Source of the DNA: a virus
DNA length: 33,403 bases
Reading direction: 5' to 3' (one strand)
Virus record (IMG/VR): IMGVR_UViG_3300008267_000720
Coordinates: 1-33,403 of that record
Part shown: one piece after another, positions 1 through 32,086 of the stretch
Layout of the letters: the number at the start of each line of letters is the position of its first letter
How positions within the stretch are numbered: the stretch's first letter is position 1
The notes under the pieces: model-generated
Database searches by the model: none
Seen by the model: only the letters and a program-made list of their open reading frames with translations
Told to the model about the DNA's origin: nothing
Program-made: the position numbers and the translations under genes

Positions 1-42
1 CTGGCGTCCTACGAGCAGTTGCTCTGGGCTGGCGGCAACGGC
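1..42. repeat. Terminal direct repeat, copy 1 (contig closes into a circle)
   Basis: The first 42 bases are identical to bases 33362-33403. The reading frame of the SGNH hydrolase stays open across the join and then reaches a normal stop at 199-201. This is what a circular assembly, or a circularly permuted headful genome, looks like. The length is short for a biological terminal repeat, so an assembly k-mer overlap is the simplest reading. Confidence 0.9.
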
Positions 43-201
43 ACGACCTACTACCAGCGGTACAACAACATCCCCGCCGCAGGCGCGAATATCGTGGCGC
101 ACCTGTCCGGCGGCTACTACACCGGAACGACCTTCGGGCCGAGTGACGGCTACACGATGCTGTCGAACGCGATCCTCGGCGTGCTGCTCGCCTCGGCATG
201 A
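1..201 (+). CDS. SGNH/GDSL-type hydrolase, C-terminal part (continues from 32096 across the map ends)
   Basis: This is the last 67 codons of the gene that begins at 32096. Joined at the 42-bp overlap, the whole gene is 1467 nt and encodes 488 residues. The segment contains A-H-L-S-G-G near joined residue 456 and then S-D-G-Y-T-M-L-S-N-A-I, which looks like the end of an SGNH domain, where a catalytic His is followed by a G-Y-x-x-L-x-x-A-I helix. The canonical Asp three residues before the His is not obvious (the local sequence is N-I-V-A-H), so the triad may be a Ser-His dyad or use another Asp. The gene ends 37-60 nt before the protease-scaffold start, with a possible promoter in the gap. 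Confidence 0.75.
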   Translation: MASYEQLLWAGGNGTTYYQRYNNIPAAGANIVAHLSGGYYTGTTFGPSDGYTMLSNAILGVLLASA

Positions 202-205
202 TCTC

Positions 206-236
206 TTGACAAAGCAAGAGATTCCGACGCAAAAAT
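206..236 (+). promoter_or_regulatory. Possible sigma70-like promoter before the head-gene block
   Basis: A perfect TTGACA lies at 206-211, just after the hydrolase stop codon. An A-rich AAAAAT at 231-236 (4 of 6 matches to TATAAT) follows after a 19-bp spacer, which is longer than ideal. It sits just upstream of the protease-scaffold gene and would boost head-gene expression. The call rests mainly on the -35 hexamer and its position. Confidence 0.3.
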
Positions 237-261
237 CTTGAGAAACCGTAGAGTCCCTGTC

Positions 262-1515
262 GTGAACACTCCATCTCACCGCGTCTCGGATCTGGGCGAC
301 AAGGTCGTGATCCACGACCTTGAGGTGTTCTGCGCCTACGACCGGGAGATCGACGGAGATCACGACCCCGAACTCGCGAAGTTTGACAACGAGCGCGTCG
401 CGGACATCGTGGACAGCACGCAGCAGTACATGAACCGAGGCTCGTTTCCGCGGCTCGTCGTGATGCATGAGCGCGACGGCAAGGAACCGAAGTCGAGCGT
501 CGGGCGCTTCACCAAGATCCAGTATCAGGAGCGCGACGGCGTCGGATACATCGTCGGTGACTGCGAGGTCGAGCGCAGCGTGTTCGACAAGTTGCTTGCG
601 ACGAACGCGTTTCCGCGACGCAGCGCCGAGATCTGGCAGGAGCAGAACCATCTCTCCGAGGTCGCGCTGCTCGGTCGCGAGACCCCGAGGCGTCCGCTTC
701 CCGATACGCACTTCGGTCGTCGTGGACAGCGCGTTTGCTTCTCGCGTCCGCTGCGGCCCGTCGAGTTCGACATGGGAACTGTCGGCGGCGGAATGAGCAC
801 CTATGTTCCCGGCACGAAGGACATCAACATGAACGAAGACCTGCGCGAGGAAATCAACGCGCTGAAGGCCGCTATGGAGGAGATGAAGAACTCCTACAAG
901 AAGCGCTTCGGTGACGATGCGGACAAGGACGAGATGGCCGAGCCGGACGCGGACGAGATGTCCATGCGCGAGGGCGAGGCCGAGACGATGGAAGCCGACG
1001 ACATGCTCGTCCAGCAGTTCGCTGAGGAAGAGGGCGACGGCGACGGAATCCACATCGACATTGATTCGCACGGCGACGAGGATGAGGAGGAAGAGGACGA
1101 GGACGAGGCTGCGGCCTTCCCGGCGTCCCGTCGCTTCTCGTCGCGTCGCGACATGTTCGCGATGCGTCGCGAAAACAAGCGCATGGCGCGTGAACTTGCG
1201 ACCATGCGAGCGGAACTGCACGCCGAGAAGTTCGGTCGCGAGATCGACGCGATGGAGCAGGAGGGCTACCGCATCCCGGCGGAACGCCGTCCGCAACTCA
1301 TCGCGGAACTCATCGCCAGCCGCGACCCGGCGGAACTGCTCGACACTTGGCGCGACCTGTTCGCCCGAGACCCCATCGGCCAGCGCATCGACATGAGCCG
1401 TGCTTCGCTCCCCAAGGGCGACATCGACGCTCGTCAGATCTCCGAGATGGTCCGCGAGTACGCGGGTCGTCCGGCGGATTTCCAGAAGGCACTCAACAGC
1501 CGCATCAAGCGGTGA
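262..1515 (+). CDS. Mu gpI-like head maturation protease fused to scaffold
   Basis: The N-terminal ~165 residues match the Mu gpI family pattern: an early conserved strand, then G-R-F-T-K, then R-R-S-A-E-I, then L-S-E-V-A-L-L-G, followed by a proline-rich exit. Residues ~219-286 are almost entirely Asp/Glu. They are followed by a basic patch (S-R-R-F-S-S-R-R-D-M-F-A) and a coiled-coil-like helix ending in K-R, as expected of a scaffold. In this family the protease acts inside the prohead and the C-terminal half scaffolds capsid assembly. An internal ATG at 793 (residue 178) could give a scaffold-only isoform, as in Mu gpI/gpZ. The start is uncertain: GTG 262 is chosen because a GAG lies about 8 nt upstream; TTG 238 is in frame but has no ribosome site. 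Residues 174-187 share a motif with the capsid N-terminus. Confidence 0.78.
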   Translation: MNTPSHRVSDLGDKVVIHDLEVFCAYDREIDGDHDPELAKFDNERVADIVDSTQQYMNRGSFPRLVVMHERDGKEPKSSVGRFTKIQYQERDGVGYIVGDCEVERSVFDKLLATNAFPRRSAEIWQEQNHLSEVALLGRETPRRPLPDTHFGRRGQRVCFSRPLRPVEFDMGTVGGGMSTYVPGTKDINMNEDLREEINALKAAMEEMKNSYKKRFGDDADKDEMAEPDADEMSMREGEAETMEADDMLVQQFAEEEGDGDGIHIDIDSHGDEDEEEEDEDEAAAFPASRRFSSRRDMFAMRRENKRMARELATMRAELHAEKFGREIDAMEQEGYRIPAERRPQLIAELIASRDPAELLDTWRDLFARDPIGQRIDMSRASLPKGDIDARQISEMVREYAGRPADFQKALNSRIKR

Positions 1516-1533
1516 TTCAGGAAGGACCACGAC

Positions 1534-1935
1534 ATGTCTGACATGGGATTCACCCCAGAACTCATCGCAAGCGCAAGCATCAACCCGTACCGCTTCGTCA
1601 AGTTGTCCGGCGCGTTTCAGGGCGCAGCGGCGACGGCCATCACGGACCTCGTCCTCGGCGTGACCGATGGCTCGGTCTACCAGTTCGACAAGACCGAGCA
1701 CGCGATCAGCGGACGCGGCATCACGCTGCAGCCGACGAACACCGTGCAGGTCGAGGTCGGCACGGGCGGCGTCTCGGCTGGCGACTTCCTGATGCCGCAG
1801 TCGGCTGGTACTGGTCAGGCCGTCGTGGCCTCCGGTGCGACCGCTCGCTCCTCGTACATCGCCCTTGAGGCCGGATCCGCAGGCGAGATCATTCGCGCAT
1901 GGCGCTTCGGCTTCCGCGGCCCGGTGTTCACCTGA
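1534..1935 (+). CDS. Probable capsid decoration/stabilisation protein
   Basis: This 133-residue, beta-rich protein lies between the protease-scaffold and the major capsid gene, the standard place for a head decoration protein. Its pattern (an early F-V-K-L-S-G, a middle V-Q-V-E-V-G-T-G-G-V-S-A-G-D-F-L, then a late A-L-E-A-G-S-A-G-E) resembles DUF2190-type or gpD-like decoration proteins, in which a small beta-barrel binds the capsid surface. A good AGGAAGG site precedes the ATG. Function is inferred from position and pattern, not from a certain family hit. Confidence 0.55.
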   Translation: MSDMGFTPELIASASINPYRFVKLSGAFQGAAATAITDLVLGVTDGSVYQFDKTEHAISGRGITLQPTNTVQVEVGTGGVSAGDFLMPQSAGTGQAVVASGATARSSYIALEAGSAGEIIRAWRFGFRGPVFT

Positions 1936-1972
1936 TCCTCTGATCCCATCCTCCAACACAGGAGTCTGACAC

Positions 1973-3019
1973 ATGGCATACACAGCAGTTGGAGGCGGAC
2001 TTTCGACTTATGTCCCCTCCACCAACGACCTCGCTACTGGCGCTCTGCAGGTGGAGTTCACCCGCGCCCCGAACACATTCGCGCTGACTCGCTACGCGCA
2101 GTTGGTTCCCGTGACCAAGGCCACGGGCTACTACCTGCGGCAGGATGTGACGGACAATGTCCGCGTCACCGATGTCAACGAGTTCGCTTGGCCGCTCGGC
2201 AACGACAGGCCCACCGGAAAGCAGAACGCGTTTGAGTTCAAGCAGTACAGCGCGCTGCGCTACGCGTACCCGTTCTACATCCCGCAGGAGACCTCAGCGC
2301 AGGCCGCGTGGGATGTCGTCGCGCAGCACGCCCGTTCGAAGGCGCAGTTGGCGATGACCGCTCGCACGATGCGTGCGTCCACGGTCCTCTCGACTTCGGG
2401 CAACTGGGACGGCAACTACACCGCTGCGGCTGGCACGACCACGGGTGCGTACACCGCGACGGGTTCGTGGGTCGATTCCAGCAACGGCAACTACTACATC
2501 CAGAAGACCATCCAGCAGGTCATGCGAATCGTGTCGCAGACCTCCGGCGGCGCGGTGAACCCGACGCAGTTGATCATGGTCATCTCGCCCACGGTCGCGA
2601 ACATCATCTCGCAGGCTGAGGAAGTGAAGAGTTATGTGAAGAACATGCCGCTCGCGACCCAGTTCCTGCAGGGCAGCGAGACCTTCGCCAAGTGGGGCAT
2701 TCCGCCCACCCTGTTCGGACTCGGTGATGTTGTCGTTGACGACAGCGTCAAGGTCACCTCCAAGCGCGGCGCGGCTTCGACCACCTACTCGTATGTGCTC
2801 GGCAACGGCGCGTACTTCCTGAGCCGTCCGGGTGGTCTGGTGGGCGTCGAGGGCGCGAACTCGTTCAGCACCCTCCAGATCTTCGCCTACGAGGACATGA
2901 CGGTCGAGCAGTTCAACGACCCGCTCAACCGCCGCATCGAAGGCCGCGTGATCGACAACAGCGTGGCGGAACTCGCCGCTCCGGTGTCGGGCTACGGCAT
3001 CGGCAATGTGACCGCCTGA
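1973..3019 (+). CDS. Major capsid protein
   Basis: This 348-residue protein follows the decoration gene and precedes the connector genes. Its size, its position and a long N-terminal arm followed by E-F-A-W-P-L-G, then a region rich in aromatic residues and a mixed alpha/beta core, fit an HK97-fold capsid protein of the kind that accompanies Mu-like portals. It carries the motif V-G-G-G-L-S-T-Y-V-P-S-T-N-D at residues 6-19, nearly the same as residues 174-187 of the protease-scaffold. An AGGAG-type site (ACAGGAG) lies about 9 nt before the ATG. The gene is followed by a strong hairpin at 3042-3070. Confidence 0.8.
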   Translation: MAYTAVGGGLSTYVPSTNDLATGALQVEFTRAPNTFALTRYAQLVPVTKATGYYLRQDVTDNVRVTDVNEFAWPLGNDRPTGKQNAFEFKQYSALRYAYPFYIPQETSAQAAWDVVAQHARSKAQLAMTARTMRASTVLSTSGNWDGNYTAAAGTTTGAYTATGSWVDSSNGNYYIQKTIQQVMRIVSQTSGGAVNPTQLIMVISPTVANIISQAEEVKSYVKNMPLATQFLQGSETFAKWGIPPTLFGLGDVVVDDSVKVTSKRGAASTTYSYVLGNGAYFLSRPGGLVGVEGANSFSTLQIFAYEDMTVEQFNDPLNRRIEGRVIDNSVAELAAPVSGYGIGNVTA

Positions 3020-12291: not shown

Positions 12292-12485
12292 GGATCCTGC
12301 GCCCTCTTGAGATCGCACGCCGGATCGGCTGCACGCCGAAATATGTTGGCTACCTAATCGACAGCGGAAAACTCCGCGGATACAGGCTCCCGGGGTCGCT
12401 GCATCGGCGCGTCCGCGAGGATGTCCTAGATGCATTCATTCGCGAGCGAATAGAGCAGAAGGGAACGCGCAAACATGGGATCTGA
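12288..12485 (+). CDS. Excisionase/MerR-like helix-turn-helix protein
   Basis: The product is 65 residues from ATG 12288 (ATGA overlap). It reads L-R-P-L-E-I-A-R-R-I-G-C-T-P-K-Y-V-G-Y-L, then G-K-L-R-G-Y-R-L-P-G, then R-R-V-R-E-D-V-L-D-A-F-I. This is the typical layout of a HTH_17 domain: a helix-turn-helix, a short wing and a C-terminal helix. Such proteins bind DNA as excisionases or regulators. No integrase is present, so a late transcriptional regulator is more likely than a true excisionase. It lies inside the late operon and overlaps the cysteine-rich gene by 11 nt. Confidence 0.7.
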   Translation: MRILRPLEIARRIGCTPKYVGYLIDSGKLRGYRLPGSLHRRVREDVLDAFIRERIEQKGTRKHGI

Positions 12486-14433
12486 GGTTCTCTCAGCGTG
12501 CTGCTGCGGCCAGACCGGACAATGCACTCTGCGTCCAACCGTGTTCGGGGAAACCATTGACACCGGGTGCTGTCACCTAGAGGACTCGCTCATCCTGTTT
12601 TGCGAGCGGCCCGGGTACAGCAACGAGCAATGGACGACTTGCGGAACAGGCATCGACACCGAGATCCACTACAGGGTCACAGGCGCGTCATGCGACCCCA
12701 TCGTCGCGCTCTACAAGTTCTACGATTGCTGGTATCGCGTCGCGTACGCGTTCGGCGGCGGCGCGGAACTGCTGTGCAACCTGCCGCGGCAATGCTCATT
12801 CCCGGGTTGCAGCGGTCCGCCGCCGAGCGGCACGACCTTCTGCGAGCCGCTGAATCAGGATTGGAACGGCGTCAGCGATCCCTGCTGTCAGGTGGTTCTG
12901 CCGACCTGCCAATGCCAGACCATCTGGTATTCGCTGCGTCAGCAGGCGGTCATCCGCGATCAGGATCCGCGCTACCCGTCCCCTTGCCGTTGGCTTGACG
13001 AGGTAGTGTGTCACGCCGGAGGGAATCCGGTGTGCGGCGGTCTCAGCCTCTACAACCAGTTTCTCGGCGTGGTGTTTTTTGAACGCGTGTGGAAGGTTCC
13101 CGATGGTCAGTTCGGCGGCGACTACTGCGACCCCGGCGTGCGCGTGTACATCCCGCCTTGCGACAACTGCACGGACGACTACGCACCGAACCCGAGCACG
13201 ACCGTCCCGTACTACATCGCGTATGCAGGCGCCGGAGTCCCGGTGTTCCTGTGCGACCTTGACGACGCGCTGAAGCGAGGAATCATCACGACGCAGGAGC
13301 GAACGGACCTGCTCAACGACCTGCTGGCGCAGGTGCAGCCCGATCAGGCGATCCTCCGCAAGATGCAGGCGTACTGGACCCCGGGAGACTACCGCGACGA
13401 GCAGGTCGCGGCGTGGCAGGAACTCTGCACGCGGTTCCCCGGCAGCGGGTACTGCTCCTGCCCGACGACGGCCTGCACGATGCCGATGCTTGGGCCGTTC
13501 CGCAAGCGATGCGTGCCGGATGTCTGCACGACGGGCGCACAGTCCTGCATCCTGTACAGCGACATGACCGACAGCGCGAAGGCGCTCAACTCGTCGTGTC
13601 AGTACGCGTACCCGGGTTCGTGTGCGTCGCAGGCCGACTACGACTACTGGGCCGAACGCCAATGGACCTACTGGCGCGGAGTCCCGGGCGGGTGGGCGTG
13701 GGGCAACTGGAGCGTGACGCCGGACGAGTTCAAGAGTGGTCTGGGCCGCAACGGTCTGGAGTGCATGAACGGGCTGCGGAACATGGAGCGGTGCGACCCC
13801 ACCTGCACCAATCTGCCGTGCCGACCGAGCGCGACAACCTGCTGCGGATGCAATCCGACCGTGCCGCCAGCCTGCACGCAATGCTCGGTGCAGGGCTGCT
13901 CGGACACCGTGGACAACTACGCGTGCTTCAAGGTCCAGAACTTCACCTGCAGCGGCCTTGCGGCGCAGCCTGAGTGCTACGGCGTGCAGTTCATCGGCTG
14001 GCAGTATTACGCTGAGACGAACCTGCAGCGACCGCCGGGTCAGGAGACGATTTTGAAGTGCCTGTACAACGCTCGCTCCTTCCTCGTCGGGGCGCAGCGC
14101 AGCGTGCAATGGGACGGCGTCTGTCCGATGTCGTGCGTCGCGGCATCGCCGCCGCTGGGCGTGTTCAAGAACTGGCCTGCGTTCGTTCCGGGGGCGCTGG
14201 GCGAGGGCGTGATCTGCGGCGCGATCAGCAACGGCCTCCCCGGCTACAGTCTGAGCAACCTCTGCTGCGGTCACCATTGCCCGTCGTTCGACAATGACAA
14301 CTGCGGCTGGTGGGAGGAACTGGAGGGGACAACCTCCACAATCCGTCGCCCCTGTGCGGCTGTCACCGCTTGCCCGACGCTTACGCCGCAGCAGACGGCC
14401 TGCATCGGATTCACCCCGGACTGCACCCCATGA
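12475..14433 (+). CDS. Giant cysteine-rich late protein, function unknown
   Basis: This 652-residue protein contains about 59 cysteines by manual count (roughly 9%), spread along its length as C-C-C, C-C, C-x-C and C-x-x-C groups (for example near residues 9-11, 31-32, 457-460 and 601-602). I see no signal peptide, membrane segment or recognised enzyme motif. It lacks regular repeats but is rich in Trp, Tyr, Pro and Gly, like extracellular disulfide-stabilised proteins. It follows the HTH gene in the late operon with an 11-nt overlap. It could be a virion surface protein that gains disulfides after release, a metal-binding protein or a lysis factor. The frame is supported by codon pattern and by coupling at both ends. 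Confidence 0.8.
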   Translation: MGSEVLSACCCGQTGQCTLRPTVFGETIDTGCCHLEDSLILFCERPGYSNEQWTTCGTGIDTEIHYRVTGASCDPIVALYKFYDCWYRVAYAFGGGAELLCNLPRQCSFPGCSGPPPSGTTFCEPLNQDWNGVSDPCCQVVLPTCQCQTIWYSLRQQAVIRDQDPRYPSPCRWLDEVVCHAGGNPVCGGLSLYNQFLGVVFFERVWKVPDGQFGGDYCDPGVRVYIPPCDNCTDDYAPNPSTTVPYYIAYAGAGVPVFLCDLDDALKRGIITTQERTDLLNDLLAQVQPDQAILRKMQAYWTPGDYRDEQVAAWQELCTRFPGSGYCSCPTTACTMPMLGPFRKRCVPDVCTTGAQSCILYSDMTDSAKALNSSCQYAYPGSCASQADYDYWAERQWTYWRGVPGGWAWGNWSVTPDEFKSGLGRNGLECMNGLRNMERCDPTCTNLPCRPSATTCCGCNPTVPPACTQCSVQGCSDTVDNYACFKVQNFTCSGLAAQPECYGVQFIGWQYYAETNLQRPPGQETILKCLYNARSFLVGAQRSVQWDGVCPMSCVAASPPLGVFKNWPAFVPGALGEGVICGAISNGLPGYSLSNLCCGHHCPSFDNDNCGWWEELEGTTSTIRRPCAAVTACPTLTPQQTACIGFTPDCTP

Positions 14434-15907: not shown

Positions 15908-16417
15908 TCAGCGGATGGAGAGGCGGACGCCGCGTTCCGCGAGCCGAGCGCCGGGGACGGCCTCGCCGCGCTCCAGCGCCTCCCGGATCGCGTCGCGGTC
16001 GATGGTCTGCGTCACACGGGGGACCACGAACTGCTCCGGCAGGGCCGCGTCGTCGTCCACGACGAGCGGGGCCTTGCCGCCGTTGCGCTGGACCCCGAGC
16101 GCGAATCGGTCGGTGTGGACCTTTGTGCGACCCGTCGCCTGCATCGCCTGCAGCATGGTCTGCCGCAGGCGCTCCGCAAGCGCGGAGTCTGAGTCCGCCA
16201 GTTTCTGCATTCGCTTGGCCTCGTCGGCGCGAGCCTGCGCCCGGACCTCGCAGGTGCGGATGAGCGCCGCGTAGTCGTCGGCCTTCTGGTCGAACGCCTC
16301 GGCCAGCGCAGCCGCGTGCTCCGCGAGCGCCGCGTCCAGTTCCGCGCATTCTCCCCCGGTCGTGTCCGCGGCGGCGAGCACCGACTGCAGTTCCGCAGAG
16401 ATGTGGTAGAGGCTCAC
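15908..16417 (-). CDS. Siphovirus Gp157-family protein
   Basis: This 169-residue protein has the Gp157 family layout: a long N-terminal coiled coil (E-L-D-A-A-L-A-E-H ... K-A-D-D-Y-A-A-L-I-R-T), then L-R-Q-T-M-L-Q-A-M-Q-A-T-G-R-T-K-V, then a strand with V-V-D-D-D-A-A-L-P-E-Q-F, then I-R-E-A-L-E-R-G-E-A-V-P-G-A-R-L and a final V-R-L-S-I-R. The family lies beside single-strand annealing proteins in many siphoviruses; its biochemical role is not established. The start is GTG (complement 16415-16417), which overlaps the preceding TGA. Confidence 0.82.
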   Translation of the reverse strand: MSLYHISAELQSVLAAADTTGGECAELDAALAEHAAALAEAFDQKADDYAALIRTCEVRAQARADEAKRMQKLADSDSALAERLRQTMLQAMQATGRTKVHTDRFALGVQRNGGKAPLVVDDDAALPEQFVVPRVTQTIDRDAIREALERGEAVPGARLAERGVRLSIR

Positions 16418-17325: not shown

Positions 17326-17467
17326 TTGTCCCCCGGATCTCCGCGGCCTCGCTCCGCAGGTTGGTGTTGACTGTCGGCGGGAACTCCACGCCGCGCTGTT
17401 CGATCCATGCGCGGTCAAGGGCATCGGCCCCGCCGCTCCCGAGATGCTCCAGCATCATCTCGCGCAT
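17318..17467 (-). CDS. 49-aa early protein after Erf, unknown
   Basis: The start is ATG (complement 17465-17467) with TTGAGGAG five nt upstream, overlapping the Erf stop by 13 nt. The product begins M-R-E-M-M-L-E-H-L-G-S-G and is mildly helical. The reading frame is open upstream into the Erf gene, but no start there has a ribosome site. It is a small coupled gene without recognised family. Confidence 0.45.
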   Translation of the reverse strand: MREMMLEHLGSGGADALDRAWIEQRGVEFPPTVNTNLRSEAAEIRGTNV

Positions 17468-18261
17468 CTGCTCCTCAAGGCAGGTCGCAAGCGCAATCGT
17501 TCGGTTGTAGCGCGTCCCTTGTAGAACCCGGCGGGGTCCCACTTCCACGCGATCTCCGCGAGCCGACCGACCTCGACGCCGTCCATCTGCATGTACTCGC
17601 CGGGGAACGAAACCCACACGCTCCCGTGAACCGGGTGAGAGCAGAACACGGCAATCACGCCAGCGTCGCGCTCGACCGCCCGGATGAGCATGACCGAGTC
17701 CGAGCCTGCGTCAGGCCAGCGGCGCGTCGCATCGGGCTTCGCCGCAGGCGCGGCCTTGGGAGCCTCCGCGGCCTTTGCTGGCGCGGCGCGGCGCGTCGGC
17801 GTGGGGTCGAGCAGGTCGCGGGTAGACGGCGCAGGGGCAGGCGCGGGGCGCTGCGGCTGACGGGCCTCGCGGTCCTCGTCCGCGTCGGTGTCATCGTCGC
17901 CCGTCAGCATCAGGGCCGCGGCCATCGCGTAGCGGCGCAGGTAGGTCACGACAGCGCCAAGGTTCTGCGCGGTCGCCTTGTCCGGGAGCACCATGCCCAC
18001 GGTCGAGCGCATCCACTCTCCGCTGATGTGCGCGACCTGCGTGGAGACGCTGACCTCGTTGCCGTGGCTGTTGACGCCCTGCGTCAGGATCAGACCGTTC
18101 CGCGAGAGCGGCTCGCGAATCGCGTCGATGTGCGAACCGAGCGTCGCGTACCGGAAGCCCTTGAAGTGGGGGTGTGCCTTGTCAAGCGCGGGATTGCGAA
18201 TCTCGCCCTGCGCCTTCGCGAGTGCCGCGACCAGCGCGGCGATGCTTTCACTCTGCTGCAT
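17455..18261 (-). CDS. erf: Erf-type single-strand annealing protein
   Basis: This 268-residue protein has the Erf core in residues ~1-125: A-L-V-A-A-L-A-K-A-Q-G-E-I, then H-P-H-F-K-G-F-R-Y-A-T-L, then L-S-R-N-G-L-I-L-T-Q-G, then H-I-S-G-E-W, then G-A-V-V-T-Y-L-R-R-Y-A-M-A-A-A-L. These are the blocks of the ERF family, which anneals complementary single strands in phage recombination and genome circularisation. A Pro/Ala-rich linker (~residues 135-185) leads to a small C-terminal domain with a basic tail. It starts at ATG (complement 18259-18261) after GGAGTAGAGAAC and has its own strong promoter. Confidence 0.85.
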   Translation of the reverse strand: MQQSESIAALVAALAKAQGEIRNPALDKAHPHFKGFRYATLGSHIDAIREPLSRNGLILTQGVNSHGNEVSVSTQVAHISGEWMRSTVGMVLPDKATAQNLGAVVTYLRRYAMAAALMLTGDDDTDADEDREARQPQRPAPAPAPSTRDLLDPTPTRRAAPAKAAEAPKAAPAAKPDATRRWPDAGSDSVMLIRAVERDAGVIAVFCSHPVHGSVWVSFPGEYMQMDGVEVGRLAEIAWKWDPAGFYKGRATTERLRLRPALRSRCAR

Positions 18262-26011: not shown

Positions 26012-28909
26012 ATGTGCGGCAGCAACCATGCCCGATTCTCACAAGCCGAGACGAAGTATTTCGTCGGTGCGACCGAGATTCCGCGGAATCAGATTCGCGA
26101 GGAACACGGGCGCGACGGATCACGAAACACATTCGCGAAGAAGCAAACAAAGTTTTTCGCTGGAATGCGTGAGTACAGCGAGAAGCAGGTGACGCATCTG
26201 CCGTTGAATGAATTTGCGCTGAAGTTTCCGAATCGCAAATGGTTTCTCGTGCAGGGATTTGGAAACAAACGGTTCAGCGTCGATAATCCCGGCCCACACC
26301 GGGGTGCATTGGTGTCATGGGAAACCGATTGGCGACCCATCGACCGCGTGGTGAACTTCAGTAAAACCCCGCAACCAAGCGTTTGCGATGCGCGATGCCG
26401 CAACGCGACAGGAATGGATTGTGATTGCTCTTGTGGTGGATCACAACACGGTGTGAATGTCGCAATGTCCCGCGCCCGGTTCGCAGCCGAGGACCTCGAC
26501 CTGCGTCCGACCGCGGAGATGGCGGCGAACGCCGAGCGCGGACTCGCGCTCCGCGAGGAGCACGGCAAGGGCGGAACGGCTGTCGGGGTCGCTCGCGCTC
26601 GCGACATCAAGAACAGGGCGAACCTTTCGCCCGACACGGTCAAGCGCATGCACTCGTTCTTCAGCCGTCACGAAGGCAACCAGAAGGGCGGCGAGGACGA
26701 CGCCGGATACATCGCGTGGCTGCTGTGGGGAGGCGACGCTGGCAAGGCGTGGGCCGCTCGCAAGGCCGCGCAGATCAACAAGGACACCAACATGAAGAAC
26801 GCACGCAAGGCAGGGTTTGCGTTGGACGACATCGGTAGCCGCGAGCGACTCAAGGAGTCCATTCAGCGACACCAGTTCTACACCGACAGGATCCGGCGAG
26901 CGCAGGCCGAGTTCCGCGTAGCCTTCCGAGAGGACTTTGGGATAAACGCCGACCCAGAGGTGATCCGCGACCTGAACGCAGTCGTGGACCGGGCGATTGC
27001 AGATAGCCAGCGCAACCCTAAGAAGGCCGCTGCGGATCTCCGAGCGTGGGCGGACGGCATCACCAGCATGTGGATGCACCACGACCACGGAAAGCGCACC
27101 GCGCTGGCGGCGCGGCAGATCGCGATGCAGATGGCAAACCTCGCGTCGTCTGGGTTTGCACGCAAGGCCACACCAAACAAGGACCGATTCTCAATGGACA
27201 TGCAAAGCAAACTGATGGACCTGACGCGGCGGTTTGGCTTCAAGCCTTCGCGAGTCATCGTGCGTGGAACGCACGGCACGATCCTGTTTGAGGACCAGCC
27301 GGGAGAGGCCACGCGATACAAGCAGAAACTTGCGCCTGTGATGAAGGCAATGGGAATCCCCGACTCGGCAATCAAGGCGCGGGAGGTCTCGTACCCAGAG
27401 GAGGACGGCGAGCCAGCGACGCACACGGGCGTGGTGGAGATTGACTACGCCGTGCTGGCAAATGTCAAGGCTTCCCGCCCCGGCGCGAAGGCGGCGTTCA
27501 GCGTTGATTCTCGCATCGAAGTCCTGCGGCAGAAGGTGCAGACCTACATCGCCAAGGGCGGATCGTGGCAGGGACTCGACAAGCCCGAGGGTCTTGCGAA
27601 ACTCGTTGGCGACATCATCAACGGGTCATTCCGTCCAACCGACACGGGCATGGACAATGTCGAATCGCGGCTTCGCAAGTACCACGGCATGAACTTCTCC
27701 CGCACGGGCGCGAAGTCGGCGTTCGCCGTCAAGAAGTCGGTAGGTGGTCAGTTGGTGACGCTGGTCAAGGACGCAAAGGGCGCAGATTGGGTGTCCTACT
27801 GGGCGGATTGGAGCAGCCCGACAGATGTACGCGTCAAGCGGCACGGCAAGTTGGTCGAATACACCGATGGCCGCGTCGTCCTGCGCGATACTGCAGGGAA
27901 CATCGTGAGCGAGGGACGCGCAGGCTACGGCAGCATGTCGCCTATCCGCGCAAGTCGCACGGGCGCGAAGTCGGCGTTCGCCGCCAACAATGTTGACCTC
28001 TGGAACTACTTTGCTCGGAGTGACTTCATCATGGTCAAGCAGAATCCGACCGAACTTGCCAACTACGAGCGGTTTGCCAAGAAGGCGTTGAGCATGGCCG
28101 ATTTCACGCCTCCGGCGCGGCAGGGTGATGGCCCGAGCCTGCATCAGATGGCGAAGGAGGCGCTGGCGGACATCGCGAAGTACAAGGAAACCGTCTACCG
28201 CCACAAGAACCGCGCCCCGTGGGACACCTACGCTCGCCCCGGCGCGAAGGCGGCGTTCGCGCACCCGTCGTGGCATGAGGGGATCCTCGGCAAGGACACC
28301 GCACCAGCGCTCGCGGCGTATTCGTGGATCGACCGCAGCAATGTCCCGGTGCAGGGCCGCACGCAGACCCTGCTCGCGGACCTCGCGGCAGGCGTCCATG
28401 CGACCAGCCCGAACCTGTCGATTGAGCAGGCCGTGCTCGCAGCCGCCAAGGACATGGTCCGCAAGGGCGTGGCGACAGGCGACCTGCGCGAGTGGGCCGC
28501 GAACGGCGGCAAGTTCTCGCGCCCCGGCGCGTCCGAGGCTTTCGCGCTTGGTCGCGTGTCAACCGCCGCCACGCCGCAGGCCGACGAGGCTCTGACCGCG
28601 CTCGCCGCGAAGGTGGGCCGCGAGCACACCGTGAGCCTGTTCAAGCGATGGGCCGAGGGCAAGGCCGCGATGTCGCGAGGCGACGGCAAGGCAAGTTTCA
28701 GCGGCGGCAACTACTACACCGTCGCCGCACACATCGCAAGCGACCCCGCAGGGGAGCGAAACTTTCAGGATCTTGCGGAGGCAAAGGCTTACGCAAAGGT
28801 CATGCTGGACGCGGCAAAGTCGCGGGCAAAGGGCAAGCCCGTGGTTGTCGATGTCTACCCCGTGGTGAACTATTCTCCGCAGGCTGCGGTTATGACCTTG
28901 AAGGCGTGA
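26012..28909 (+). CDS. Large multi-segment polyprotein with repeated SR-x-GAK-x-AF linkers
   Basis: This 965-residue protein lies between terL and the portal gene. Residues ~120-150 hold a cysteine cluster (C125, C129, C137, C139, C141, H146). Residues ~160-260 hold G-G-T-A-V-G-V-A-R-A-R-D-I, F-F-S-R-H-E and G-Y-I-A-W-L-L-W-G-G-D-A-G, a module known from other phage multidomain and head proteins. From residue 488 on, the linker SR(P/T)GAK(S/A)AF(A/S) recurs at 488, 563, 648 and 741, with SRPGASEAFA at 836 and a weaker copy at 888. It separates segments of 40-90 residues, each of different sequence. This resembles co-injected polyvalent proteins and could be cut into pieces. The first ~450 nt are visibly AT-richer than the rest. 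Confidence 0.75.
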   Translation: MCGSNHARFSQAETKYFVGATEIPRNQIREEHGRDGSRNTFAKKQTKFFAGMREYSEKQVTHLPLNEFALKFPNRKWFLVQGFGNKRFSVDNPGPHRGALVSWETDWRPIDRVVNFSKTPQPSVCDARCRNATGMDCDCSCGGSQHGVNVAMSRARFAAEDLDLRPTAEMAANAERGLALREEHGKGGTAVGVARARDIKNRANLSPDTVKRMHSFFSRHEGNQKGGEDDAGYIAWLLWGGDAGKAWAARKAAQINKDTNMKNARKAGFALDDIGSRERLKESIQRHQFYTDRIRRAQAEFRVAFREDFGINADPEVIRDLNAVVDRAIADSQRNPKKAAADLRAWADGITSMWMHHDHGKRTALAARQIAMQMANLASSGFARKATPNKDRFSMDMQSKLMDLTRRFGFKPSRVIVRGTHGTILFEDQPGEATRYKQKLAPVMKAMGIPDSAIKAREVSYPEEDGEPATHTGVVEIDYAVLANVKASRPGAKAAFSVDSRIEVLRQKVQTYIAKGGSWQGLDKPEGLAKLVGDIINGSFRPTDTGMDNVESRLRKYHGMNFSRTGAKSAFAVKKSVGGQLVTLVKDAKGADWVSYWADWSSPTDVRVKRHGKLVEYTDGRVVLRDTAGNIVSEGRAGYGSMSPIRASRTGAKSAFAANNVDLWNYFARSDFIMVKQNPTELANYERFAKKALSMADFTPPARQGDGPSLHQMAKEALADIAKYKETVYRHKNRAPWDTYARPGAKAAFAHPSWHEGILGKDTAPALAAYSWIDRSNVPVQGRTQTLLADLAAGVHATSPNLSIEQAVLAAAKDMVRKGVATGDLREWAANGGKFSRPGASEAFALGRVSTAATPQADEALTALAAKVGREHTVSLFKRWAEGKAAMSRGDGKASFSGGNYYTVAAHIASDPAGERNFQDLAEAKAYAKVMLDAAKSRAKGKPVVVDVYPVVNYSPQAAVMTLKA
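27473..28702 (+). repeat. Linker repeats SR(P/T)GAK(S/A)AF(A/S) within the polyprotein gene
   Basis: Copies: 27473-27502 (SRPGAKAAFS), 27698-27727 (SRTGAKSAFA), 27953-27982 (SRTGAKSAFA), 28232-28261 (ARPGAKAAFA), 28517-28546 (SRPGASEAFA) and the weaker 28673-28702 (SRGDGKASFS). Copies 2 and 3 share 28 identical bases. Start-to-start spacing is 75, 85, 93, 95 and 52 residues. Related strings are M-S-R-A-R-F-A-A at residue 152 and A-R-K-A-G-F-A-L at 264. Confidence 0.9.
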
Positions 28910-28920
28910 AATACGACATC

Positions 28921-28929
28921 TGCTACCGT
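28921..28929 (+). promoter_or_regulatory. Extended -10-like box TGCTACCGT before the portal gene
   Basis: TG-C-TACCGT, seven nt before ATG 28937, with no Shine-Dalgarno in between. It follows the same layout as the boxes at 25997 and 31529 and would give a leaderless portal mRNA. The gap between the polyprotein and portal genes (27 nt) holds nothing else. Confidence 0.35.
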
Positions 28930-28936
28930 GTAAACC

Positions 28937-30415
28937 ATGCCTGACACGCCGAACGACCCCAATCCGCTCGCGAACGGGCTGACTCCGGCGCAGCGTCCTC
29001 GCAAGCCGCTCAAGGCTCCGGTTGAGCGCGGCTTGACGCAGCCTCTCGCGACCGCTGTCGAGGTGCAGCGGTCGTTCTTCACCACCGCCGACAAACTGCT
29101 GCGGAACGCGAGCATCGCGTACCGACTCAATCCGCAGTACCAGCAGATGATGCGTGCGGACGCCGACATCGAAGGCGTCCTTCGCTCGCTTCAGGTCACG
29201 CTCGCGTCGCTGGAGTGGGCGATATCGTCCACCGACGACACGAACGAGAAGGCGGTCGAACTCGCGCAGCGCATCAGCGACATCTTTGAGGCGATGCCAA
29301 GGCGCTCGGACTTCGTGCGTGCGATGCATGAGGCCGTCTGGTACGGCAGCGCAGCGACCAACATCGTCTACCGACGAGACCCCCGCCTCGGCATCGCGAT
29401 CAAGGAGTGGTATCCGTTCCACGCCGACACGCTCGCGTTCGACCAGCGGGGCAACCTCGCGATGCGCGTCGGAGCCGAGTATTCGATGCACGGGCCGTCC
29501 GAGCAGAACATCGGGTTCGACAGCCGCGTCCACATCTTCACGGACGAGGAGCGCAAGGCAATCGTCCACCACCGAGTGTTCGTGAGTGCGCCTGACTTCA
29601 ACGACCCGAACGGCACGGAGTCGATCTACCGAGGCATCGGCGCTCGCGACATCTGCTGGTTCATGTGGTTGGCGAAGCAGGAGATCCTGCAGGACGCGAT
29701 CACCTACGCGGAGCGGTACGCGATGGGAATCCGCGTCGGCTACTACCCGCTCGGGCAGGACGCAGGCCGCTCCATGATGGAGACCGTGCTGGCAAACCTG
29801 ACGAACGACAACTCGGTGCTGCTCCCGCAGAGCGGCACGGAAAAGATCTACGACATCGACATCAAGGAGCCGAATGCGGGTCGCGCTCAGGTGTTCATGG
29901 AACTGGTCAACTGGTTCAGCGGCAAGATCAAGGAGGCCATCCTCGGTCAGTCGCTGAGTAGCGAAACCGGATCCACGGGCCTCGGCTCGGGCGTCGCGTC
30001 GCTTCACGCCGACACGCTCTCGCGCATCATCCGCTACCACGCGGACGCGCTCGCGGACTCGCTGACCTGCGACTTCGTTCGCGTCGTCGCACGGATGCTC
30101 GGCGCGTCGGAGGACGAAGCGTCCTGCCTGCGGTTTGAGTTCGCGCCCGAGCGCCCCGATCCCAAGGAAAGGTTGGAGGCCATCAAGACCTTCATCGAAC
30201 TTGGCGGTTCGGTGAGCGAGCGCGAGGTCCGCGACCTCCTCGGCCTCGCGCAGCCGTCGCAGGACGAACCCGTGCTCCGGGGTGCGAGCGCCACGCCCCC
30301 GGGATCCGGCGACGCGGTCGCCGCGCTGCTGTCGGGCGGCTCCGAACCCGCCGAGGGCGTTCCGCCGTCGCCCGACGCTCCGCGCCAGTTCTCGCGCCGC
30401 ACTTGGTGGGGCTGA
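28937..30415 (+). CDS. Portal protein, Mu gp29/DUF935-like
   Basis: The product is 492 residues. The signature of the family is near residue 335: I-L-G-Q-S-L-S-S-E-T-G-S-T-G, followed by a helix with H-A-D-T-L-S-R-I-I-R-Y-H-A-D-A-L-A. Later comes G-G-S-V-S-E-R-E-V-R-D-L-L-G-L-A, the usual end block, then a disordered Pro/Ser tail. The portal ring is the DNA gateway and docks terminase and connector. It is followed four nt later by the gpF-like gene, as in Mu-like phages. Confidence 0.88.
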   Translation: MPDTPNDPNPLANGLTPAQRPRKPLKAPVERGLTQPLATAVEVQRSFFTTADKLLRNASIAYRLNPQYQQMMRADADIEGVLRSLQVTLASLEWAISSTDDTNEKAVELAQRISDIFEAMPRRSDFVRAMHEAVWYGSAATNIVYRRDPRLGIAIKEWYPFHADTLAFDQRGNLAMRVGAEYSMHGPSEQNIGFDSRVHIFTDEERKAIVHHRVFVSAPDFNDPNGTESIYRGIGARDICWFMWLAKQEILQDAITYAERYAMGIRVGYYPLGQDAGRSMMETVLANLTNDNSVLLPQSGTEKIYDIDIKEPNAGRAQVFMELVNWFSGKIKEAILGQSLSSETGSTGLGSGVASLHADTLSRIIRYHADALADSLTCDFVRVVARMLGASEDEASCLRFEFAPERPDPKERLEAIKTFIELGGSVSEREVRDLLGLAQPSQDEPVLRGASATPPGSGDAVAALLSGGSEPAEGVPPSPDAPRQFSRRTWWG

Positions 30416-30418
30416 CTT

Positions 30419-31531
30419 ATGCAGCAGGACCCTTCGCTCGCCGCGCTCCTCAAGGACGCCGCGCAGGCGTACCGCGAGGCCATCGCCGCACAGGTCGAGG
30501 GCGTGGACCCGTCCGAGCATTGGGAGCGTTGGAAGGCCGACACGGCGGCTCTGCTGCTGGCGTCGTGGGCGGCTGGGGCGCTCACGACCGTCCGGCAGGC
30601 CGGAGTCAAGCCTGCGCTGGCATCCGCCGCGGCGCAGCCCACGGCGTTCGCCCGGGGCATCCCCGAGACCGTCTACAGGTTTGAATCCGGGCCAGCGGCT
30701 TCGGTCGTTTCCCGGTTCATCAACCTGCTCCCGATGACCCGCCAGCGATGGGAGGCCCTGATTGACTACGCGTACCAAGCGGCGGGGGAGATGCAGGGCG
30801 ACGAGGCCGCGAGCGCCCTTGCGAAGATCCTCGACCGTTCCCCGAGGCTCCGCGATCTCGTTCAGGGTGCTGCGGGTCGTCCGCCTATGCCGGGTGTCAA
30901 GACCCCCAAGCGAGCGCCCGAGGCCGTCAAACGCGCCCGGACGCCCGAGGTGCAGGCCGCTGTGCAGGGGTCGTTTTTCGCGACGGGCATGACGCGGGAG
31001 CAGGTCGAGCAGACCCAGCAACTCCTCGGCAAGGTCATTCGGCAGGAGGTCACGACCAGCGTCGCCGGGAAGAAACTCCTGACGCTCGGCCTCGGAGACT
31101 TCGTGGAGCAGGCGACGCTTGAGACGGGGACCGACCTGACCTCGGCGCGGCTGGAGACGATCTACCGCACGAACCTGAACCGGGCGCAGACGCAGGGGCA
31201 ACTCGACATCTGCCGGGATGAGACGGTCAAGGCGTTCGTCCCTCTCATGCGATTCAGCGCCACGAAGGACAAGCGCACCCGCGACACGCACAAGGCGATG
31301 GACGGGTACATCGCGACTGTCGATCAGATCGACGCGATGGGGATCCCGGCTCCGCTGGGGTTCAACTGCCGCTGCGCGTGGATCCCGATCAGCGTCAACA
31401 AGGCGGTCAACGAGGGCCTGTGCGACGAGGACGGCAATCCCGACTACGAGGAGATCAAGCGCCGCAACGGATCGCGCCAGCGCCTGATTGACACAGGGCA
31501 GATTCCAGATCCGGGTTTCATCAGCGGCTGA
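30419..31531 (+). CDS. Mu gpF-like minor head protein
   Basis: The product is 370 residues. The C-terminal third has the gpF/head-morphogenesis blocks: R-L-E-T-I-Y-R-T-N-L-N-R-A-Q-T-Q, then R-F-S-A-T-K-D-K-R-T-R-D-T-H-K-A-M-D-G, then P-L-G-F-N-C-R-C. The family sits inside the prohead next to the portal and is required for head assembly. The N-terminal 190 residues are helical and less conserved. The ATG lies 4 nt after the portal stop. Confidence 0.85.
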   Translation: MQQDPSLAALLKDAAQAYREAIAAQVEGVDPSEHWERWKADTAALLLASWAAGALTTVRQAGVKPALASAAAQPTAFARGIPETVYRFESGPAASVVSRFINLLPMTRQRWEALIDYAYQAAGEMQGDEAASALAKILDRSPRLRDLVQGAAGRPPMPGVKTPKRAPEAVKRARTPEVQAAVQGSFFATGMTREQVEQTQQLLGKVIRQEVTTSVAGKKLLTLGLGDFVEQATLETGTDLTSARLETIYRTNLNRAQTQGQLDICRDETVKAFVPLMRFSATKDKRTRDTHKAMDGYIATVDQIDAMGIPAPLGFNCRCAWIPISVNKAVNEGLCDEDGNPDYEEIKRRNGSRQRLIDTGQIPDPGFISG

Positions 31532-31537
31532 TAGGAT
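31529..31537 (+). promoter_or_regulatory. Extended -10 box TGATAGGAT before a virion gene
   Basis: TGA is the stop codon of the gpF-like gene, and TAGGAT follows at 31532-31537. Six nt (CAACGC) separate it from ATG 31544. The layout is the same as before the polyprotein, and there is no ribosome site. Confidence 0.45.
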
Positions 31538-31543
31538 CAACGC

Positions 31544-32086
31544 ATGGCCGACGCAACGATCACCACTCCGCAGCGCAACTACAGCCTGCTCGCATCCGCC
31601 AGCACGCCGACCTCGTTCGCGGCGCTGTCGATCACCTCGCGCCCGAGCACGGGCGTCGTGTGGGACTACCAGACCACGGGAGCGAACGCATCGCCGTCGC
31701 TCATCCGTCTCATGCCGTGGTGCGGAACCGCAGCGGCGGGCGCGAGCGGTTCGATGCGCGTCGTCGGCTGGTCGCGCATCTCCGCAAGCGAAGGCGACCG
31801 CTGGCTCCCGTCGATCCTCGGTGAGTTCACGCTCACCTTCAGCACGACGCTCGGGAACATCCCGTCGTGGACGCTCGACACGAACACCGTGCGGCCCTAC
31901 CAACTCGTCTCGCAGGCGGCGAATGCTCCTGCAGCGTACCTGTACAGCCCCGGCAGCACGAACACCGCTGCGTCCGAGCCGTGCGAGATTCTGCTCGACT
32001 GCAAGGGCGCACAGGTCGTGACCGTGCAGTTCGCGATCACCGCATCGCCGTCCGCGACGATGGGCGTCCTGTACACCACCCTCTGA
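31544..32086 (+). CDS. Beta-rich virion-type protein (180 aa), unknown
   Basis: Thr/Ser/Ala-rich alternating strands run along the whole length (S-F-A-A-L-S-I-T-S-R, F-T-L-T-F-S-T-T-L, Q-V-V-T-V-Q-F-A-I-T). It lies between the gpF-like gene and the SGNH hydrolase. It could be a small capsid-surface or fibre protein that carries or pairs with the hydrolase. No family is recognised. No Shine-Dalgarno is seen; it has the leaderless-type box. Confidence 0.55.
   Translation: MADATITTPQRNYSLLASASTPTSFAALSITSRPSTGVVWDYQTTGANASPSLIRLMPWCGTAAAGASGSMRVVGWSRISASEGDRWLPSILGEFTLTFSTTLGNIPSWTLDTNTVRPYQLVSQAANAPAAYLYSPGSTNTAASEPCEILLDCKGAQVVTVQFAITASPSATMGVLYTTL

Follow-up and report, generated by a model that had tools for sequence, protein, structure and literature searches.

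An in-frame cassette array in a phage head-gene cluster, with shared linker DNA as the probable site of module exchange

Between the terminase and portal genes of an IMG/VR virus record (33,403 bases, analysed in full and hereafter called the window) lies an ORF, P0001, in which near-copies of one short linker separate segments that are mutually unlike. What keeps the linkers alike when the segments between them are not? An initial annotation of this DNA read the linkers as head-protease sites or as packaging tags. Comparison of P0001 with its relatives leads us to a different answer: P0001 is very probably an in-frame cassette array, in which crossover in the shared linker DNA adds, removes and exchanges modules.

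The array gene and its relatives

The placement of the gene in the terL/portal interval, as initially annotated, is borne out by library matches of both neighbours, and the count of five good linkers and a weak one also stands (Table 1). The reading frame is open over 965 codons. Clean linkers start at residues 487, 562, 647, 740 and 835, and the weak one at residue 887, a position at which the relative L003 has MSRGDAKAAFG, closer to a normal linker. The segments after successive linkers measure 64, 74, 82, 84, 41 and 68 residues. Modularity extends further than had been annotated: the first half of P0001 also consists of modules (residues 152-262, about 265-398 and 399-486) with degenerate junctions, and these modules recur in other arrays, where some are flanked by normal linkers. 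A degenerate linker DNA pattern matches the window four times against 0.22 expected, a number reached in none of 100 shuffles, and a linker scoring matrix, trained on the same ORFs, finds about 9 sites in every 1000 residues of the array ORFs, a figure that drops to 0.08 after shuffling.

Table 1 Array gene P0001, its parts and its neighbours in the window
Feature	Position	Strand	Basis or remark
Putative head protease/scaffold	238..1515	+	Motif reading and position; without library match
Erf single-strand annealing recombinase	17455..18261	-	Pfam ERF 5.3e-19, PHROG 9.4e-35
Terminase large subunit (terL)	24488..25999	+	PHROG 38, 2e-61
P0001 array gene, 965 aa	26012..28909	+	Between terL and portal
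Header module ('GYIAWLLWGG', residues 152-262)	26465..26797	+	All-helical; AF2 pLDDT 88.9; PHROG 2859
Module, residues 399-486, beta-alpha fold	27206..27469	+	Sits between linkers in other arrays
Linker 1 ASRPGAKAAFS	27470..27502	+	
Module VDSRIEV...	27503..27694	+	Present in L002, L003, L017 beside other neighbours
Linker 2 FSRTGAKSAFA	27695..27727	+	
Module VKKSVGG...	27728..27949	+	Homologues: L006, L014, L025
Linker 3 ASRTGAKSAFA	27950..27982	+	
Module ANNVDLW...	27983..28228	+	Homologues: L002, L003, L008, L014, L025
Linker 4 YARPGAKAAFA	28229..28261	+	
Module HPSWHEG...	28262..28513	+	Homologue: L056
Linker 5 FSRPGASEAFA	28514..28546	+	
Module LGRVSTA...	28547..28669	+	Homologues: L002, L003, L008, L055
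Weak linker 6 MSRGDGKASFS	28670..28702	+	
Last module GGNYYTV...	28703..28906	+	Homologues: L002, L014, L019, L048, L055
Mu gp29-type portal	28937..30415	+	Pfam 1.1e-46
Mu gpF-type minor head protein	30419..31531	+	Pfam 1e-15

Head genes occupy both ends of the record (1-3019 and 24488-32086), so that it is probably circularly permuted or circular. Elsewhere the window encodes a Siphovirus Gp157 gene (15908-16417, 6.6e-36), a GP88 family gene (23377-24102, 1.5e-34) and, at 12475-14433, an ORF of 652 residues that opens with a cysteine-rich stretch (MGSEVLSACCCGQTGQC...) and matches nothing in Pfam or PHROG.

Searches of IMG/VR with back-translated linkers, third codon bases left free, returned 26, 24 and 87 stretches, from which 115 distinct array ORFs remained after removal of contained copies. 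Homologues of P0001 thus carry linkers too, the absence of which would have counted against the initial annotation, and the same linker stands between different segments in varied orders. The 115 arrays hold 359 internal modules with a median length of 70 residues. Stricter clustering gives 240 clusters; the internal families number 166, 92 of them singletons, and the family count does not saturate as arrays are added. The main header families occur only in first place and the main tail family only in last place, whereas internal families take many positions beside many different neighbours; for 23 of the 69 family pairs that co-occur in at least two arrays, both orders are seen. Many phages have two arrays, one in the terL-portal interval and one after gpF. 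The open-access literature yielded no description of such an arrangement. Of five contigs from prokaryote genomes that matched the linker pattern, one carries an array, namely L129, which is small, binned as Nitrospiraceae and also encodes the phage protease; the matches in Bosea were rejected as isolated, and those in Noviherbaspirillum and in a gammaproteobacterial genome for want of a matching ORF at the site.

The borders of shared DNA coincide with the linkers. In the close relatives L002 and L003, near-identical modules stand next to different ones and the changes run from linker to linker. Across the arrays, 72% of the ends of shared-DNA stretches lie no more than 15 nt from a linker, where chance would give 21%, and this rises to 81% for stretches more than 95% identical. 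Turnover is visible even between phages that are otherwise almost the same: for 34 array pairs with at least one flank at least 98% identical (in some pairs a single flank was compared), the Jaccard index of module families averages 0.30, with two pairs identical in modules and five having no module in common, and at 95-98% flank identity the mean index is 0.12. L098 and L081 are identical over 355/355 and 926/926 nt (1281 in all) around one exact 294-nt difference that runs linker to linker, and L058 and L071 differ by a single module of 192 nt that one of them has cleanly lost or acquired, again linker to linker. Metagenome assembly could in principle create chimeras at repeats; the occurrence of identical arrays under different metagenome accessions (L070/L074, L016/L023 and L011/L029) speaks against this.

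Linker DNA and the position of crossovers

Every junction carries the same DNA of about 28 bp, with the consensus TCCCGCCCCGGCGCGAAGGCGAAG followed by TTYGC or ATGGC, in constant direction and frame. The block is sharply bounded, at about bases 3 and 31, and is found at 539 sense and two antisense places in the arrays; its exact or near-exact matches outside them are arrays cut by contig ends. In linkers selected by their peptide, the codons TCC CGC CCC GGC GCG AAG dominate, each at 90-96%, and same-codon identity across arrays is 0.84 in linkers, whereas residues of the same types reach 0.33 at other places in these genes. The header block of the same arrays provides a control for common descent: while its codon identity at degenerate sites declines through 0.95, 0.47 and 0.30, the linkers remain at 0.91, 0.83 and 0.84. 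Deviations in the six core codons comprise 285 replacement and 135 silent changes, a ratio of 2.1 versus the 2.3 expected from uniform mutation free of protein selection. By these codon comparisons, the linker is conserved as DNA, not as peptide alone. The peptide may matter too, because the R codon (33 silent versus 13 replacing changes) and the K codon (10 versus 6) show some amino-acid constraint. RNA structure of the window linkers does not exceed that of shuffles (hairpin z from -1.3 to +1.6). It is worth noting that the linkers of a given phage tend to be mostly RTGAK or mostly RPGAK (L016, L022, L023 and L026 versus L014 and L105), and such a prevalence of one type suggests homogenisation inside a genome.

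Within the block, bases to the left of about position 12 track the left module and those to the right of about 23 track the right module, with mixed behaviour in between. Both parental linkers are visible in other arrays for 28 junctions, the partner arrays not necessarily being the true parents, and 25 of the 28 show a single clean left-to-right switch. The switch intervals vary (e.g. 2-9, 4-15, 25-27 and 27-32), and the best single position fits only 16 of the 25. Single switches at varying positions point to homologous crossover in a short repeat rather than to a recombinase with a fixed site.

Both protein-level roles of the initial annotation have to be weighed against these observations. 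Were the linkers cleavage sites of the head protease, small proteins would be freed within the head, and the location of the gene in the head cluster, its head-associated header, the putative head protease gene of the window and the fact that R and K are the most constrained linker residues would all be in keeping with this. We consider it unlikely, given that silent linker sites are conserved too and replacement changes are not short overall, that crossovers fall inside the linkers and that in some arrays the final linker precedes almost nothing. Moreover, no linker-like sequence was found in the proteases, and the motif VGGG.(N/S)T(F/Y)(V/I)P, common to the proteases and the N-termini of the major capsid proteins in the relatives where these were seen, is present in no array. 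This tells against cleavage of the linker by that protease; some other protease might conceivably cut it. The motif itself, read as VGGG(L/M)(N/S)T(F/Y)(V/I)P, is seen in the window (238-1515 and 1973-3019) and in L008, L010, L019, L032, L037, L065, L110 and L112. It lies between the protease and scaffold parts of the protease/scaffold protein and at the major capsid N-terminus, and is a candidate maturation cleavage or docking motif.

Alternatively, the linker peptide could bind scaffold or capsid and load each module into the head, as does the capsid targeting sequence of T-even phages, whose diverse internal proteins have only this sequence in common (PMC3012670). A conserved peptide ahead of diverse small proteins is what such a tag would look like. 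This role, too, appears improbable: the linker is conserved at the DNA level and crossovers fall within it, a single tag per protein would be enough, and the header already supplies a head-associated module.

A recombinase site, as in integron- or shufflon-like cassette systems, would account for one DNA sequence in direct repeats, for fixed ends and for unidirectional cassettes. It is nonetheless strongly disfavoured, and we regard it as very unlikely: the crossover position varies in the linker, there is no hairpin beyond chance, and a search for tyrosine and serine recombinases (PF00589 and PF00239), with positive controls, found none in 26 records, which may be incomplete. Least credible of all is separate translation of the modules from a ribosome-binding site (GAAGG) and ATG in the linker, for although codon 10 is ATG in 165 linkers, with GAAGG five bases ahead of it, this codon is TTY or CAY in most linkers, including all those of the window, and the ORF is maintained open through all modules.

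The preferred reading, exchange by homology, is consistent with the recombination genes of these phages. Of the 25 related records, 14 share Erf with the window and three others, which lack it, encode RecT; neither was found in the remaining 8 (all possibly incomplete), nor was Rad52 in the records lacking Erf. According to De Paepe et al. (PMC3945230), pairing requires a minimum of 23-27 bp with Redbeta and of 31-34 bp with RecA, and the Erf of phage D3 recombines efficiently even when the DNA has diverged. An exchange by annealase would leave the traces seen here, namely a junction homology (about 28 bp) no shorter than an annealase requires, crossovers distributed over the block and an annealase gene in the genome. 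Conservation at the DNA level, switches inside the linkers, an annealase gene and the absence of tyrosine and serine recombinases from the 26 records together indicate that the linkers serve as homology for module exchange, and Erf, or RecT in some relatives, is the likely agent.

We propose the following scheme. The gene is a single ORF in the head cluster with a fixed header and a varying series of mutually unrelated modules, each about 40-95 residues long, which in many arrays is closed by a fixed tail. During co-infection or replication, annealing by Erf or RecT at linkers whose length is about the minimum for pairing would swap modules, and the ORF stays open after any exchange because all linkers are in one frame.

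Header, modules and a possible role

The header module ('GYIAWLLWGGDAG') is widespread and predicted to be all-helical. Its structural relatives among viral proteins are portions of portal, prohead protease and XkdF proteins, to which it is thus fused in other phages; it occurs alone in S-CBS4 and begins a CRP-811 protein annotated as major capsid protein. These relatives and the position of the gene favour head association of the predicted product.

The modules themselves are functional protein, because the median dN/dS per family is 0.20, indicating purifying selection, and no family exceeds 1. Pfam, PHROGs and PADLOC searches with 145 module representatives gave few strong matches, none with a known function, and the weak PADLOC matches were judged to be due to chance. 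Sequence searches of the PDB with four arrays found no match, and fold searches with two modules no significant one. Where modules have relatives, they match entire small proteins (98/98 positions of phrog_9437, 3-63 of the 66 of phrog_7884 and 2-64 of the 72 of DUF7678). Phage isolates encode such relatives as genes of their own, with 68 residues in Rhodobacter phage RcPeripeteia and 100 residues in Rhizobium phage RHph_Y52; these genes lie outside the head cluster, next to other small genes.

The arrays share features with several systems known for module exchange. Integron cassette arrays have fixed ends, unidirectional cassettes, an open pool and common junction DNA, all of which recur here; in the phage arrays, however, no integrase and no hairpin site were found, the cassettes are in frame within one ORF and the crossover position varies. 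Borrelia vls likewise combines in-frame cassettes with short direct repeats, its cassettes all being versions of one domain, and MARTX toxins swap effector modules in one polypeptide but are not known to have a standard short DNA linker. Susskind and Botstein reportedly hypothesised that short conserved DNA at the borders of phage modules permits homologous exchange; the linkers described here differ in lying within one gene and in being repeated between many modules. If standard short linkers indeed drive module exchange in a single phage gene, this would be a long-proposed mechanism of mosaicism in a form seldom so clean. Smug et al. (2023, PMC10684548) describe fragments that unrelated phage proteins have in common and exchange, for the most part in proteins of tails and replication and in lysins. 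The arrays differ in being a dedicated gene with a standard DNA linker at each junction, and the word 'linker' is absent from the text of that study (PMC10684548).

With respect to function, the initial annotation had suggested a polyvalent-type protein. Polyvalent proteins, as described by Iyer et al. (2017, PMC5512222), are large, contain 2-15 domains including effector or DNA-processing ones, and are presumed to be packaged and then injected. P0001 resembles them in being multidomain and encoded with the portal-terminase head genes; its modules, in contrast, are of 40-95 residues and mostly without known family, and 'linker' does not occur in the text of PMC5512222. The suggestion holds in so far as the protein is multi-module, belongs to the head cluster, carries a head-associated header and has segments some of which recur as independent small proteins, whereas Pfam finds no domain of the published polyvalent repertoire, nor any effector or DNA-processing domain, in P0001 or ten other arrays. 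The header and the recurrence of some segments as small proteins make a polyvalent-like string of co-packaged effectors plausible. The internal proteins of T-even phages (IPI and relatives) form a hypervariable set of small head-packaged proteins, the mature form of IPI having 76 residues (PMC3012670). They, too, combine variable small proteins with a conserved sequence, but are encoded by separate genes each with a targeting peptide, as opposed to a single ORF with internal linkers conserved as DNA.

With less confidence than the exchange scheme, we suggest that the product could be a chain of small proteins associated with the head, which would be packaged and would enter the host by injection along with the phage DNA, and that an arms race with host defences may drive module turnover. 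Such a packaged, injected counter-defence string is plausible. The fuller version, in which a lineage of lytic phages keeps a packaged slot-array gene, with linkers at about the annealase minimum, to draw on an open pool of small anti-defence proteins injected as one string early in infection, is put forward tentatively and may well prove wrong. If injected, the modules would be good counter-defence candidates. The sequence between two linkers offers, in any case, a route to hundreds of uncharacterised small phage proteins, and the natural linker of about 28 bp suggests that unrelated domains can be swapped without loss of frame.

The downstream end of the arrays is often closed by the same element: a tail of 51 residues ending in EGKPQDQAVAIALDMKRRGEL (phrog_2423 like; e.g. 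L056:3602-3754(-)) terminates 52 of the 115 arrays.
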